The notes beneath the pieces were generated by a model that saw nothing but the letters and a program-made list of their open reading frames with translations, did not search any database and was not told the DNA's origin. The position numbers were made by a program, and so were the translations under genes. Below, one piece after another: positions 4,205 to 31,005 of a DNA stretch of 31,005 bases. The stretch comes from a virus. The stretch covers positions 1 through 31,005 of IMG/VR virus record IMGVR_UViG_3300025684_000003; one strand, written 5' to 3'. How positions within the stretch are numbered: the stretch's first letter is position 1; every line of letters begins with the position of its first letter.

Positions 4205-4215
4205 TACTATCTTTG
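4188..4215 (+). promoter_or_regulatory. Promoter upstream of terminator and sigma-like gene
   Basis: TATCTTTG at 4208-4215 matches TAnnTTTG exactly. The -33 part is weak: TTA instead of TTG at 4188-4190, 17 bp upstream. A transcript from here would begin near 4221 and run into the terminator at 4248-4274, giving an RNA of only about 50 nt unless polymerase reads through into the sigma-like gene. Confidence 0.55.
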
Positions 4216-4247
4216 TAGTGTTTCATGGTTTAGGTTTAATGTTTAGG

Positions 4248-4274
4248 GGGAAGTTTAACGACTTCCCTTTTTTT
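4248..4274 (+). terminator. Intrinsic terminator before sigma-like gene
   Basis: GGGAAGT (4248-4254) pairs with ACTTCCC (4261-4267), a perfect 7-bp stem with loop TTAACG, followed directly by seven T's. It lies between two TAnnTTTG elements. It may end transcription from upstream, or act as an attenuator for the sigma-like gene. Confidence 0.85.
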
Positions 4275-4277
4275 ATT

Positions 4278-4285
4278 TATATTTG
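4278..4285 (+). promoter_or_regulatory. -7 element directly before sigma-like gene
   Basis: TATATTTG, a perfect TAnnTTTG, immediately after the terminator T run and only five bases before the ATG at 4291. At the usual distance, transcription would start at or next to the ATG, giving a leaderless or nearly leaderless mRNA. No clear TTG lies 17-20 bp upstream because the terminator stem occupies that place; TTA at 4255-4257 is the nearest match. Confidence 0.55.
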
Positions 4286-4290
4286 TCAAC

Positions 4291-4785
4291 ATGGAAGCAA
4301 TTTACGCCCAGCATAACAAATGGGTTAACATAGTTAAGAACTTAGGAGGCGGGGACTTCTCCGAGGACATAGTACAGGAGATGTACATTAAGCTTATGAA
4401 TATCGAGCTTAAAAAACAAACTGCAGATACTTTCGTATATTATATATTACGTAACATGACTTACGACCTACACAGGAAGCAAAGTAAAGTTTGCAAAATA
4501 GATTTAGAGGAGCTGCGTTATTTATGCGCAGAAGGTAGTGACAGAAAAGAGGAACTAGAAAAGATACACGAAAGAATAGAAGAAGAAGTAGAGAACTGGC
4601 ACTGGTACGACGAGATGCTATGGAAACTATACAAGGACGGTAGAAGCATGAGAGAGTTAAGCAACGAAACGAAGATAAGTTTAAGCTCAATCTTTCACAC
4701 TATCAAAACTTGTAAGGAGAGAATAAGCGAAGCAGTAGGAGAAGACTACGAAGACTACATAAACGAGGACTTTGAAAAGATATGA
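4291..4785 (+). CDS. Sigma-70-family-like transcription factor
   Basis: Resembles ECF-type sigma factors. Residues 24-35 (SEDIVQEMYIKL) match the conserved region 2 pattern (DlvQevfikl), and residues about 106-145 form a region 4-like helix-turn-helix (LWKLYKDGRSMRELSNETKISLSSI, quoted in part). The 164-aa length fits a minimal sigma. It could redirect host RNA polymerase to late phage genes; whether it still binds core enzyme is not visible. It overlaps the next gene by ATGA and starts the packaging cluster. The ATG at 4291 is preferred because the next in-frame ATG (4381) would delete most of region 2. Its start lies unusually close to a -7 element and it lacks the AACAATTAAA leader seen before other early genes. 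Confidence 0.7.
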   Translation: MEAIYAQHNKWVNIVKNLGGGDFSEDIVQEMYIKLMNIELKKQTADTFVYYILRNMTYDLHRKQSKVCKIDLEELRYLCAEGSDRKEELEKIHERIEEEVENWHWYDEMLWKLYKDGRSMRELSNETKISLSSIFHTIKTCKERISEAVGEDYEDYINEDFEKI

Positions 4786-27484: not shown

Positions 27485-27708
27485 TGACAAAAGAAGAAAA
27501 GATAATAAACGCAGCGGGGCTAGTGTACACGCTTCGCGACCTACTAGAAGAGGTCGACTGGAACAGGGAACTAAAGCAAAGAACAAAGAACTACGCAGCT
27601 TATTTAGATAGGTTAGTACGTGAAATAGCAAAAGATAGAGATGTATGGCAAGAGCTAGACGATTTACAGAAACATTTTTACGATAATTTTGTACGGGAAA
27701 CAAAATAA
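27484..27708 (+). CDS. Hypothetical protein (74 aa)
   Basis: A 74-aa mostly helical protein (YTLRDLLEEVDWNRELKQRT; AKDRDVWQELDDLQKHFYDN), unknown function. It overlaps the previous stop by one base. Its last codons overlap the -33 region of the promoter that follows, so it ends the small early operon. Confidence 0.6.
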   Translation: MTKEEKIINAAGLVYTLRDLLEEVDWNRELKQRTKNYAAYLDRLVREIAKDRDVWQELDDLQKHFYDNFVRETK

Positions 27709-27721
27709 ATAGTTATATTTG
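27689..27721 (+). promoter_or_regulatory. Promoter of structured RNA/helicase unit
   Basis: TATATTTG at 27714-27721, a full match to TAnnTTTG, with TTG at 27689-27691; the spacer of 22 bp is a little long. Transcription should begin near 27726, right before the stem A of the structured RNA. Confidence 0.65.
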
Positions 27722-27725
27722 CACA

Positions 27726-27820
27726 AGTTGCGGGCTCAACCATAAGCAGCTAAAGGAATTAATAAAAGCCTTGTAATGAAAGCGCCTGAGCCCCGCTGGA
27801 TTTACAGGGCTTATTTTTTT
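27726..27820 (+). ncRNA. Structured RNA, pseudoknot or attenuator, before helicase
   Basis: About 95 nt from the predicted start to a T run. Two long pairings interlock. Stem A: GCGGGCTCA (27730-27738) with TGAGCCCCGC (27787-27796), 9 bp with one bulged C. Stem B: AAGCCTTGTAA (27766-27776) with TTACAGGGCTT (27802-27812), 11 bp with one G-U pair, followed by A then seven T's. The order is A-B-A'-B', so A and B form either a pseudoknot or two competing states, with B-B' acting as a terminator. It has its own host-type promoter and is followed by the helicase gene 20 bases later. It could be a free small RNA or a regulatory leader. I know no Rfam family that matches it, but cannot search. Confidence 0.7.
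27814..27820 (+). terminator. U tract ending the structured RNA
   Basis: Seven T's directly after stem B' (one A between). Together with the 11-bp stem B this makes a credible intrinsic terminator whose loop (27777-27801) is unusually large because it contains A'. Read-through would continue into the helicase gene. Confidence 0.65.
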
Positions 27821-27840
27821 ACACAAAAAACAATTAAATT

Positions 27841-29211
27841 ATGAACTATGAACAATTTTTAAACCAAAAAAAACACCTTATAGGAGAGTTTGGTTTTGAG
27901 CCTAATTACTTTCCTGATTGTGCTTTTGATTTTCAGAAAGCAATAATAGAGAAAGCAGTTAAAAAGGGTAGGATGGCAGTATTTGCGGATACTGGTTTAG
28001 GTAAAACTTTAATACAGCTATCTATTGCTGTGAATATTGTAAACGAAACAAATGGAAGGGTATTAATATTGACACCTTTAGCTGTAGGTTTTCAATTCGT
28101 AAAAGAAGCAATAGACAGGAATATTACCGACGACATCGAGCAAACAAAAAACGGAAAGCACACAAAGAAAATAGTAGTATGTAATTACGAGAGGTTGCAG
28201 TATTTAAAGCCTGAAGACTTTGAGGGGGTTATATTAGATGAAAGTAGTATTTTAAAAAACTTCGACGGTAAAATTAAAAATCAAATTACTAGCTTTATTA
28301 AAAAAGTCAAGTACCGTTATTTATCTACAGCAACCCCTAGCCCTAACGATTTTATAGAATTAGGTACAAGTAGCGAGGCTCTTGGTTATATGGGTTATAT
28401 GGATATGCTAGGTAAGTTTTTTAAAAACAATAATAACACCTCCGACAGCAACGCTCGTAATATAGGAGAAAAATACTACTTAAAACCGCACGCTGAAAAA
28501 GATTTTTTTGCATGGGTTAACCAGTGGTCGATAATGGTTAAAAAACCGTCGGACTTAGGTTTTGATGACACGCGTTATATACTGCCTCAACTCATAGTAA
28601 ATAAACACGTCGTTAAAAACAATTCATTAATAGATGTAGACGGTCAAATACAAATGTTTACACCAGTTGCAAAGAACTTTAACGAGATTAAACACGAAGA
28701 GAAAAGCACAATAAAAGAACGATGCGAGAAGGCTATTGAACTAGCAAAAGGTAAAACTTCTGTATACTGGGTTAATAGAAACGAGGAAAGCGCATTAATA
28801 AAGTCTTTTGATAGTGAAGCTGTAGAAATATTAGGAAGTATGTATGTAGATAAAAAAGAAGAGATTTTAGTAGCCTTTGCAAATGGAGAAATAACTCGAC
28901 TAATAACTAAGGCTAAGATGACTGGAATGGGTTTAAATTGGCAGCACTGTAACCATTCTGTATTTTTCCCTACATGGAGTTACGAACAATACTACCAAGC
29001 TATTCGACGGTTTTGGAGGTTTGGACAGCAACGCGACGTAACTATTGATATGGTTATTTCAGACGGTCAGACTAGAGTAATGGAAGCACTACAGCAAAAG
29101 ACCGAGAAAGCAATACAACTATATCAAAACCTAGTAGAAAATGTAAACGCGGACTTCACGCACAAAACAAAAGAATTTAATAAACAAATAGAAACACCCA
29201 AATTTATATAA
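27841..29211 (+). CDS. SNF2/superfamily 2 helicase
   Basis: A 456-aa superfamily 2 DNA translocase. Motif I ADTGLGKT (49-56), motif II DESS (133-136) instead of DEAH, motif III STATP (162-166), motif V KMTGMGLNW (359-367) and motif VI QAIRRFWRFGQQRD (386-399) are present and in order. This short SNF2-like type is common in phages and travels with a methyltransferase. Gene starts after the structured RNA with the leader AACAATTAAA (27829-27838) two bases before ATG. It is followed, one base after its stop, by the methyltransferase. Likely roles: remodelling DNA for replication or for methylation. Confidence 0.85.
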   Translation: MNYEQFLNQKKHLIGEFGFEPNYFPDCAFDFQKAIIEKAVKKGRMAVFADTGLGKTLIQLSIAVNIVNETNGRVLILTPLAVGFQFVKEAIDRNITDDIEQTKNGKHTKKIVVCNYERLQYLKPEDFEGVILDESSILKNFDGKIKNQITSFIKKVKYRYLSTATPSPNDFIELGTSSEALGYMGYMDMLGKFFKNNNNTSDSNARNIGEKYYLKPHAEKDFFAWVNQWSIMVKKPSDLGFDDTRYILPQLIVNKHVVKNNSLIDVDGQIQMFTPVAKNFNEIKHEEKSTIKERCEKAIELAKGKTSVYWVNRNEESALIKSFDSEAVEILGSMYVDKKEEILVAFANGEITRLITKAKMTGMGLNWQHCNHSVFFPTWSYEQYYQAIRRFWRFGQQRDVTIDMVISDGQTRVMEALQQKTEKAIQLYQNLVENVNADFTHKTKEFNKQIETPKFI

Positions 29212-29212
29212 G

Positions 29213-30229
29213 ATGAAAGTAAAAGAACAAGTTTTAACAGATGATTACGCAATCTATAACGGAGATTGTATGCACGTATTACCAACGCTAAAAGATGAAA
29301 GCGTAGACCTAGCTGTATATTCTCCACCATTTGCAGGGTTATATAACTACTCTAGTAGTCCAAACGATTTTAGTAACTGCGAAAGTAAGGAGCAATTTTT
29401 AGAGCAGTACGACTTTTTAATTGAACAAATGGCTAGGGTAACAAAGAAAGGACGTATAAACGCGGTACATTGTACAGATGTATTCGATAATACTTCGCGC
29501 CTTTGGGACTTTCCACACGAGATAATTAGACTACATGAGAAACACGGTTTTGAATACCGTAATCGTATAACTATATGGAAAGAGCCTTTAAAGGTTCGTA
29601 TGCGTACAATGGTACAGAGTTTAATGCACAAATTTGTAGTTGAAGATATGACTAAATGTTTTACTGCAATGCCTGACTATATGCTAATATTTACAAAGAA
29701 AGGCGAAAACGAAGTACCAGTAACACACCCGCAAGGACTTAAAAGATACCACGGAGCTACACCAGTTTTACCTAACATTTTACAAGCATGGAACAACGCT
29801 ACTAACGACGGTTTTAACGAGGAGCAACTTTGGGAACATTTAAACTCAAAGTATAAATACCATGAAGACCCGAAAAGTAATAAATTAAGCCATTATATAT
29901 GGCAGCGTTACGCTTCTGCAGTATGGGACGACGTTCGTATAGATAACGTTTTGCCGTATCGAGAAAGCAAAACTGAGGACGATGAGAAACACGTACACCC
30001 ATTGCAATTAGATGTTATTGATAGAATAGTTGAAATGTACACCAACGAGGGCGAAGTTGTTTTAACGCCTTTTATGGGAGTAGGTAGTGAGGTTTATAGT
30101 CCAGTATCTTTAGGGCGTAAAGCAATAGGAATAGAGTTAAAAGATAGTTACTTTAACCAAGCTATCGAAAACTTGAAACACGCTAAAAAAAGAACATTCT
30201 CGAAGTATGAAGATGTAAAACTTTTTTAG
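29213..30229 (+). CDS. DNA methyltransferase, N4/N6 beta class
   Basis: A 338-aa site-specific amino-methyltransferase. Catalytic motif IV is SPPF (37-40), near the N terminus, and the S-adenosylmethionine motif I is TPFMGVGS (285-292), near the C terminus, giving the beta-class order. SPPF suggests either N4-cytosine or N6-adenine as target. The usual Asp of motif I (DPF) is Thr here, a substitution I recall from phage enzymes. The middle 150-250 region is probably target recognition. No cognate endonuclease is present, so it probably protects phage DNA from host restriction or marks it. Confidence 0.85.
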   Translation: MKVKEQVLTDDYAIYNGDCMHVLPTLKDESVDLAVYSPPFAGLYNYSSSPNDFSNCESKEQFLEQYDFLIEQMARVTKKGRINAVHCTDVFDNTSRLWDFPHEIIRLHEKHGFEYRNRITIWKEPLKVRMRTMVQSLMHKFVVEDMTKCFTAMPDYMLIFTKKGENEVPVTHPQGLKRYHGATPVLPNILQAWNNATNDGFNEEQLWEHLNSKYKYHEDPKSNKLSHYIWQRYASAVWDDVRIDNVLPYRESKTEDDEKHVHPLQLDVIDRIVEMYTNEGEVVLTPFMGVGSEVYSPVSLGRKAIGIELKDSYFNQAIENLKHAKKRTFSKYEDVKLF

Positions 30230-30325: not shown

Positions 30326-30910
30326 ATGGCAAAAGATAAAAAAAGCTTCGTGCTTTACGCAGACCAGCAAGACCTATTTAGTTTCCTCCCTGATGAAGTA
30401 GCGGGGAAGTTAATTAAGCATATATTTTCTTACGTTAACGACGAAAACCCTACAGCAGATAACCAGCTTGTAGAACTTGCTTTTATTAGTATTAAACGAC
30501 AATTAAAGCGAGACCTACAGAAATGGGAAACACAACTAGAGCAACGCAGAGAAGCGGGTCGAAAGAGTGCTGAGAAACGTCAACGAAATGCAACGACCGT
30601 TAACGAGCGTTTACGAGCGTCAACTGATAATGTAAATGTAAATGTTAATGTAAATGATAATAAAGATATATATATGTCTTTTAAACATCTATCAATTACA
30701 AAAGCAGAATGTATTAGGCTAAACGATGACTACACAAAAGAGCAAATAGACACAGTTTTAGATTCGATACAAAACTACAAGGGCAATAGTAAATATGTTT
30801 CTTTATATTTGACGGCTAAGAACTGGCTTAAAAAAGAACACGGAGAGAACGGGCGTAAAAAAGAAGTAGACAAATTAGTAGAACACGTACATAAAGCAGC
30901 TGGAATATGA
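30326..30910 (+). CDS. DUF6291-like replication initiator
   Basis: A 194-aa protein. Residues 1-70 (LYADQQDLFSFLPDEVAGKL, then IKHIFSYVNDENP and LAFISIKRQLKRDLQKWE) match the DUF6291 domain found in Bacteroidetes phage replication proteins. Then comes a basic segment (about 73-90), an Asn-Val repeat linker (NVNVNVNVNDN, about 108-118) and a C-terminal helical part (VLDSIQNYKGN, LTAKNWLKKEHG). It overlaps the ATPase start by ATGA across the circle junction. The linker coincides with DNA repeats that look like an origin, as in lambda O. The initiator role is inferred from this and from the neighbours. Confidence 0.7.
   Translation: MAKDKKSFVLYADQQDLFSFLPDEVAGKLIKHIFSYVNDENPTADNQLVELAFISIKRQLKRDLQKWETQLEQRREAGRKSAEKRQRNATTVNERLRASTDNVNVNVNVNDNKDIYMSFKHLSITKAECIRLNDDYTKEQIDTVLDSIQNYKGNSKYVSLYLTAKNWLKKEHGENGRKKEVDKLVEHVHKAAGI
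30581..30680. other. Candidate replication origin inside initiator gene
   Basis: Three consecutive 10-bp units, CAACGACCGT (30591), TAACGAGCGT (30601) and TTACGAGCGT (30611), preceded by the degenerate CAACGAAATG (30581). A 10-bp period does not follow codons and the encoded residues (TTVNERLRAST) are not repetitive, so the repeat acts at DNA level. Then 30626-30680 is A/T-rich with 6-bp repeats (AATGTA type) and an ATATATAT tract, like a DNA unwinding element. Iterons plus an A/T-rich tract inside an initiator gene match the lambda O arrangement. Confidence 0.6.
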
Positions 30911-31005
30911 TACTAAACAACGGACACAGCACAAAGTTTCTGACGGACTACCGAGACGGTAAGATACCTTTCGGTTTGAAACTAGGTTGCTACTTGGATG
31001 AGTAC
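30907..31005. repeat. Terminal repeat closing the circle
   Basis: Identical to bases 1-99. An exact 99-base overlap at the two ends of a contig is what an assembler with that k-mer leaves on a circular or circularly permuted molecule. The copy falls inside the ATPase gene, starting at its ATG, so the real genome is 30,906 bp and the repeat is not biological unless shown otherwise. Confidence 0.9.

Follow-up and report, generated by a model that had tools for sequence, protein, structure and literature searches.

The window (the 31,005-nt stretch of viral DNA that we analysed) contains a structured RNA, which lies between a small ORF that ends at 27708 and a helicase gene whose ATG is at 27841. 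The RNA is preceded by a promoter element and followed by replication genes. The features, in order along the + strand, are as follows.

27689–27691, + strand: possible -33 element (TTG), weak, with a 22-nt spacer to the -7 element
27714–27721, + strand: TAnnTTTG promoter element TATATTTG, the Bacteroidota-type -7 element, read from the sequence
27727–27731, + strand: P1 5' strand, GUUGC, covaries with 27746–27750
27732–27738, + strand: A (GGGCUCA), the loop of hairpin 1, complementary to 27787–27793
27746–27750, + strand: P1 3' strand, GCAGC, covaries with the P1 5' strand
27751–27765, + strand: unpaired spacer UAAAGGAAUUAAUAA, partly conserved (family consensus aAAGaaaUUAUUaa from alignments A1 and A2)
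27766–27776, + strand: P2 5' strand, AAGCCUUGUAA, outer stem of the terminator, pairs with 27802–27812
27777–27780, + strand: internal loop UGAA, opposite GGAU at 27798–27801
27781–27784, + strand: P3 5' strand, AGCG, inner stem of the terminator hairpin, pairs with 27794–27797
27787–27793, + strand: A' (UGAGCCC), the loop of the terminator hairpin and partner of A, from complementarity and comparison
27794–27797, + strand: P3 3' strand, CGCU, supported by covariation
27798–27801, + strand: internal loop GGAU, opposite UGAA at 27777–27780
27802–27812, + strand: P2 3' strand, UUACAGGGCUU, supported by covariation
27814–27820, + strand: U-run (seven U) of the intrinsic terminator, from the sequence; predicted 3' end of the RNA
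27841–29211, + strand: DEAD/SNF2-type helicase, 456 amino acids, the first gene behind the RNA (PF00270, PF00271; phrog_62/phrog_16)
29213–30229, + strand: DNA methyltransferase (PF01555, E = 4e-23)
30326–30910, + strand: DUF6291 protein (PF19808), probably a replisome organizer or primosomal protein, given weak PHROG matches to both

A sequence-only reading of this locus had described two long pairings that interlock, and both are present: GCGGGCUCA with UGAGCCCCGC (pairing A) and AAGCCUUGUAA with UUACAGGGCUU (pairing B, our P2), followed by seven U. Comparison with relatives gives four helices instead of two: P1, A–A', P2, and P3. A is the loop of the 5' hairpin P1, and A' is the apical loop of the P2–P3 terminator hairpin. 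The core of pairing A (27732–27738 with 27787–27793) stands, but the outer two bases fit better in P1 and P3, which leaves A as a 7-nt loop-loop pairing. Once P1 and P3 are recognised, the RNA is not forced to choose between A and B. A–A' is a kissing contact, all four helices can coexist, and the whole is a kissing-loop pseudoknot. (A caveat to coexistence is that folding of partial transcripts predicts that A–A' forms first; see below.) We consider this structure near certain. The structure ends in the U-run, 29 nt ahead of the helicase ATG. Its anatomy predicts a 5' end near 27726 and a terminated product of ~93 nt; the earlier estimate of about 95 nt was thus close, and this size too is a prediction from the sequence.

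A plain folding program, given the window's RNA, returned P1, P2, and P3 in a nested fold. The folding energy of this single sequence is ordinary relative to shuffles (z = -1.14), and the opposite strand folds no better than shuffles either (z = 0.18). Sites like TATATTTG are not rare in the window (38 found versus 37 expected). The proof is comparative.

We reached relatives through helicase homologues in IMG/VR. The same layout, with different sequences, lies upstream of the helicase in L001–L006, L050, L065, L067, and L069. A first DNA pattern was built from two conserved blocks; a second required the promoter, and required neither the T-run nor A–A'. Each added loci to the set. Our covariance model (R1) describes P1, P2, and P3 only, with A–A' left out, and it scores about 96 member loci in IMG/VR, mostly one per contig. 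On the 80 distinct sequences that the model aligned, standard pairs fill 93.8% of pair cells, compared with 64.8% after shuffling. Both sides vary in 25 of 26 pairs, and covariation scores 0.750, versus 0.196 for shuffled alignments and at most 0.143 for slid controls. Each stem is well supported: 98.2% of cells are paired in P1, 98.6% in P2, and 98.1% in P3, and every pair changes on both sides somewhere (5/5, 9/9, and 4/4, respectively). A and A' form at least seven contiguous Watson-Crick pairs in all 80 distinct sequences, which have 40 different A sequences among them. All 37 of the relatives that were found without using A–A' also have at least seven contiguous Watson-Crick pairs there; this was reached by 7.7% of controls with swapped partners and 2.3% of controls with shuffled loops. 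Covariation and A–A' complementarity across relatives thus confirm that the stems interlock, and both A and B show the compensatory changes that had been proposed as a check.

Some parts of the RNA vary more, or were selected by our searches. P1 is missing in some subfamilies (L096, L098, and L119), which counts against the attenuator that we propose below. The length of the P1 stem alone is not significant in single sequences, so the support for P1 is its covariation. The internal loop UGAA/GGAU is invariant in the set that we found, but its bases were in the search pattern, and it differs in L008 and L065/L069, which were found by other routes. More broadly, UAAUGAA and GGAUUUA were part of the DNA pattern, so the conservation of both is partly imposed by the search. 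Two unpaired segments, ACAnnATA and AAAGaaaUUAUU, are partly conserved in the alignments.

The proposal of a host-type promoter holds up as well: TATATTTG is at 27714–27721, and TAnnTTTG is at the same place in 44 of the 50 relatives that were found without requiring a promoter. The distance from TTTG to A is 9–12 nt in 85 of 93 members. At the other end, P2 is followed by at least five T in 29 of the 37 relatives that were found without requiring a T-run.

The RNA is tightly linked to the gene that follows. Each of the 93 parsed members has the start codon of an ORF (at least 30 codons long) no more than 50 nt past P2; the distance is at most 40 nt in 90 of them, and the median is 23 nt. Random positions on the same strand have a start within 50 nt in 28% of cases. 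None of the 93 parsed members has a second TAnnTTTG in the gap between RNA and gene, so the gene depends on read-through from the RNA's own promoter or from an upstream promoter. (A short ORF begins at the AUG within UAAUGAA. It overlaps the helicase start in the window and stops after a few codons in relatives, by eye, so we rejected a conserved leader peptide.)

The sequence-only reading had tied the RNA to the helicase and methyltransferase genes. Replication genes do follow, but the partner is not specifically the helicase: it can be any gene that starts the replication module. The first gene may encode a helicase, DUF6291, a BT4734-type primase, a ParB-like methyltransferase, an HNH protein, or a small ORF, but the replication module remains. 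Downstream, DUF6291 (the most frequent gene behind the RNA), primase/helicase, the window's helicase family, and the BT4734-type primase are the commonest families. Upstream, a small gene of the DnaA helix-turn-helix type is frequent (22 flanking proteins, with PF08299 slightly below the cut-off). In some members, homing-endonuclease-like or tiny genes lie between the RNA and DUF6291. Look-alikes of HNH/NUMOD-type homing endonucleases sit exactly between the RNA and the replication genes in L094 (2925–3600) and L106 (130–620).

The RNA and its neighbours do not always travel together. The window's RNA shares 97.7% identity with the one in L092, which has a gene for a ParB-like methyltransferase next downstream and unrelated sequence upstream. 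Conversely, the window's helicase is 98% identical (as protein) to that of L001, whose RNA clearly differs (64.8% identity). These mismatches indicate that the RNA is a module that moves relative to its neighbours and yet stays at the head of the replication block.

More distant forms occur in cultured phages of Flavobacteriaceae, where the architecture alone is kept. We confirmed these with a structure-only descriptor: TAnnTTTG, and then an A with at least seven pairs to the loop of a terminator stem. It gave 10 matches in 611 kb of strand sequence from cultured phages, each close before a gene, versus none in 1.83 Mb of shuffled sequence. It also matched 19 times in 80 helicase loci, versus never in 80 bacterial control loci, and once in 405 kb of Bacteroidota chromosomes (810 kb of strands), inside a reading frame. 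If the promoter is not required, the descriptor shows no enrichment in phages over chromosomes, so both the promoter and a gene start are needed to trust a match. Phage snusmum6-1 (L364) has three elements: before the helicase, before an endonuclease gene, and before gp043–DUF6291–primase. Their A sequences are GCTTCGAC, GTCGTCG, and GTGGAACG, respectively, and the A/A' pairs are unrelated. Phage tooticki9-1 (L371) has two elements, and Flavobacterium phage 11b (L365), Cellulophaga phage phi19:3 (L367), elemoA (L368), and FCL-2 (L372) have one each. (The RNA-seq of the FCL-2 host was made without the phage; PMC8092290.) In both Muminvirus phages, an element with a kissing terminator precedes an annotated endonuclease gene (L364 at 8335 and L371 at 6615), so core replication genes are not the only ones to have this design. 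In L021, each loop has exactly 7 nt and the two are complementary throughout (AGGAAT[GGTCGAG]ATTCCT and TCCG[CTCGACC]CGGA), and the element precedes a gene that starts like the replicative helicase DnaB (identified by eye). In snusmum6-1 (MN812234, L364 4459–4500), the annotated start of the helicase lies ~40 nt upstream, inside the RNA's terminator. This annotation is probably too long, as a later ATG matches the start in relatives.

We also looked outside of phages. A search of 84,980 bacterial and archaeal species for the exact pattern of TATATTTG plus core returned 82 matches, all by chance: none of them scored with the model. Members whose promoter is spelled differently escape this pattern. 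The model itself gave only weak matches in eight whole Bacteroidota genomes (best E = 0.053). Nor is the RNA in Rfam, in line with the sequence-only reading, which could match it to no known family: cmscan of the window against Rfam 15 gave no family at the gathering threshold (the best match was aspC, with 19.2 bits versus a threshold of 100, E = 1.5), and the RNAs of 13 relatives had no Rfam match. Searches of annotated phages by DNA similarity, using the window region or a single RNA as the query, yielded nothing useful, as the sequences are too divergent. We conclude that this RNA family is real, conserved, and apparently undescribed.

We propose that the RNA forms the 5' leader of the operon for phage replication and acts in cis as a transcription attenuator, a reading to which we assign a probability of about 60%. 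The locus has the parts of an attenuator: a promoter, a leader, a terminator hairpin with a U-run, and a coding gene without its own promoter. Host RNA polymerase would start at the TAnnTTTG promoter and make hairpin 1 (P1 with loop A). A–A' would pair first, once A' emerges, and the 3' arm of the terminator hairpin (P3 and P2) would emerge while the polymerase is at the U-run. Transcription would then either terminate, releasing a compact RNA of ~93 nt with kissing loops, or read through into the next gene, whose start is ~23 nt beyond the stem. The A–A' contact would set how fast the terminator hairpin closes or how stable it is, and would thereby decide how much short RNA is made relative to replication mRNA. 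The structure, its conservation, the order of promoter, RNA, terminator, and gene, and the lack of room for another promoter are computed; we infer that termination and read-through both occur and that A–A' alters their ratio.

Folding predictions agree with this order of events. In partial transcripts that end at A', A–A' is predicted to be formed in all 93 members (P > 0.5, median 0.99), while in the nested fold of the full-length RNA, P1, P2, and P3 together prevail. The order is therefore imposed by transcription, and once the RNA is complete, A–A' can be maintained only through kissing of the terminator loop. The U-rich tract after P2, which varies in quality, is as expected for a terminator that leaks. 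That the first gene changes and the replication module stays constant fits control of transcription, not control of one gene's translation.

How does this compare to known systems? The put antitermination RNAs of phage HK022 are hairpins near early promoters; they act on downstream terminators and are not known to contain one. Like our leader, they are encoded by a phage and affect termination, but put is not known to have loop-loop complementarity. In pT181-type plasmid attenuators, a separate antisense RNA, complementary along its whole length, makes the kissing contact with the leader, and the 5' arm of the terminator is taken up by an antiterminator (PMC4878617). As in pT181, a structured leader and an intrinsic terminator precede a replication gene, and loop-loop kissing recalls the specificity step of pT181 (PMC4878617). 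However, both kissing loops are in one RNA in the phages, and one of them is the terminator's own loop. As to an antiterminator, A pairs with the loop and not with an arm of the terminator, but this pairing is predicted to come first in partial transcripts. Also, we saw no sign of an antisense promoter of the TAnnTTTG type: this element lies on the antisense strand, up to 200 nt downstream, in 10% of members, versus 16% of random stretches. CI of satellite phage P4 is an RNA processed from the lysogenic control region, and it pairs with seqA and seqC (PMC4825925). Premature termination in the untranslated leader of replication genes, with short complementary segments, is shared with P4 (PMC4825925), but P4 lacks a kissing-loop terminator, and the cultured phages tested that carry the element are virulent (the Muminvirus phages tooticki and snusmum are in a set described as virulent; PMC7077304). 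IsrK of prophage Gifsy-1 acts on its own read-through mRNA (PMC4825925), and RCd22 of a Clostridioides difficile prophage (RCd22-abiF) is an antitoxin RNA tied to one protein family (PMC12373285). In both, a single promoter yields plenty of a terminated small RNA and little of a read-through mRNA for the next gene, as we predict here, but neither is reported to have a kissing terminator, and the gene family downstream of our leader changes. We also considered a type III toxin-antitoxin RNA (ToxI-like or abiF-like) and rate it low, as the downstream families vary with no fixed toxin and there was no match to abiF in Rfam. By analogy, the phage leader may work like pT181, P4 CI, and RCd22-abiF; we do not assign it to any of them because it has no Rfam match, no antisense promoter signal, and no fixed partner gene. 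It is apparently a new RNA family and, if it attenuates as proposed, a new variant of the attenuator: a terminator loop that kisses the 5' hairpin of the same leader was undescribed in the papers searched, a set that leaves most subscription journals and preprints outside.

The sequence-only reading had offered either a small phage RNA or an attenuator, and our results support these as the two readings. A stand-alone RNA would act in trans by binding host or phage RNA or protein; it would be syntenic with the replication genes, whose transcription would begin at upstream promoters and pass through a terminator that leaks. In favour of this, the RNA has a promoter and a terminator of its own, its fold is compact with both ends sealed in stems, and it recombines as a unit (as between the window and L092, with a different gene after it). 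Its position could likewise be that of an independent small RNA in a compact genome with co-directional genes, which counts against the attenuator. However, a stand-alone RNA has no need to adjoin a start codon that lacks another promoter, as is the case in 93 of 93 members. Also, 40 different A sequences are too little conservation for one fixed target, and snusmum6-1 has three different versions, one per gene. We consider a stand-alone RNA unlikely. If the kissing structure were instead an aptamer, so that binding of a protein or metabolite switches termination (a protein-controlled leader or riboswitch), this would account for a complex tertiary fold with a terminator and a gene behind it, and for the partly conserved unpaired segments and the purine-rich internal loop UGAA/GGAU. 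But aptamers usually conserve the bases that contact the ligand. Here L008 and L065/L069 have a different internal loop, L096, L098, and L119 do without P1, the cultured phages keep the architecture alone, and the conservation of UAAUGAA/GGAUUUA partly reflects our search pattern, so an aptamer seems quite improbable. The RNA could also be a transcript of the replication origin (a primer or R-loop RNA) that serves DNA synthesis instead of gene control, as it sits at the replication module, often behind the small DnaA-type helix-turn-helix gene. We give this almost no credence: snusmum6-1 has three copies before three separate genes, an origin does not need tight spacing to start codons, and we saw no conserved repeats or DnaA boxes next to the RNA (by eye).

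The evolution of the loops raises the possibility that the attenuator is also controlled in trans. The phages {L181, L301} and {L101, L137, L298, L320} have downstream DNA that is 99–100% identical, but their RNAs are only 78–79% identical. Between L181 and L101, 17 of the 18 differences in the RNA lie in P1, A, A', or P3 and keep the pairing. Similarly, the element before gp043–DUF6291–primase in snusmum6-1 and its counterpart in tooticki9-1 differ by two compensatory pairs (GTGGAACG/CGTTCCAC versus GTGAGACG/CGTCTCAC) and are otherwise similar. So different loop specificities coexist in otherwise near-identical genomes, whether by recombination or by stepwise compensation, which a purely cis function does not predict. 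In RNA incompatibility groups, as in plasmid copy control, it is typical for loop specificity to evolve faster than the sequence around it. These swaps suggest action in trans: the accumulated short RNA would pair through either of its loops (A or A') with leaders of like specificity as they are transcribed, and would enforce termination. Replication genes would thus be under feedback and like phages would be excluded, by a logic resembling that of satellite phage P4 or of plasmid copy control. But the partner loop is already present in cis at a high local concentration, so it is not obvious that an RNA in trans could compete. Replacement of alleles by recombination could give the same pattern, and only a few close pairs of phages show a change in specificity, as most share the same RNA. 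We therefore hold trans control to be improbable, and we are just as doubtful of its extension, a specificity system of Bacteroidota phages in which terminated kissing-loop RNAs shut off the replication genes of like phages, giving feedback and superinfection exclusion. If it were true, trans shut-off would drive the compensatory diversification of loop pairs into compatibility groups.

The design recurs across many viruses of Bacteroidota, its pairing sequences changed but still complementary, and it is probably a switch or brake, so far undescribed, that acts on their replication genes. It offers a concrete entry into how phages of this group, which are among the most abundant and least understood, time their replication genes. 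Because the architecture recurs in snusmum6-1, tooticki9-1, 11b, FCL-2, phi19:3, and elemoA, which are in culture, it is directly testable. The orthogonal natural loop pairs within one genome would be ready-made parts for RNA control in Bacteroidota, and if the swaps in loop specificity do reflect trans action, virulent phages would have an RNA-based compatibility system.

We made a few other observations. The window begins with a primase/helicase-like gene (1–987; phrog_18375, phrog_239) and ends (30326–31005) just after DUF6291. Because a similar primase/helicase-like gene directly follows DUF6291 in relatives, the record is probably a circularly permuted genome that was cut inside the replication module. 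Elsewhere in the window (4208–4785), TAnnTTTG sites at 4208 and 4278 lie just before a gene with a match to sigma-70 region 2 (PF04542, E = 1.5e-5), which is possibly a phage-encoded sigma factor. And in L058, L060, L061, and L062, which are from a different phage lineage, another conserved hairpin with a T-run (GGGCGGTT...AACTGCCC) occupies the same position upstream of the helicase and may be a different type of leader.
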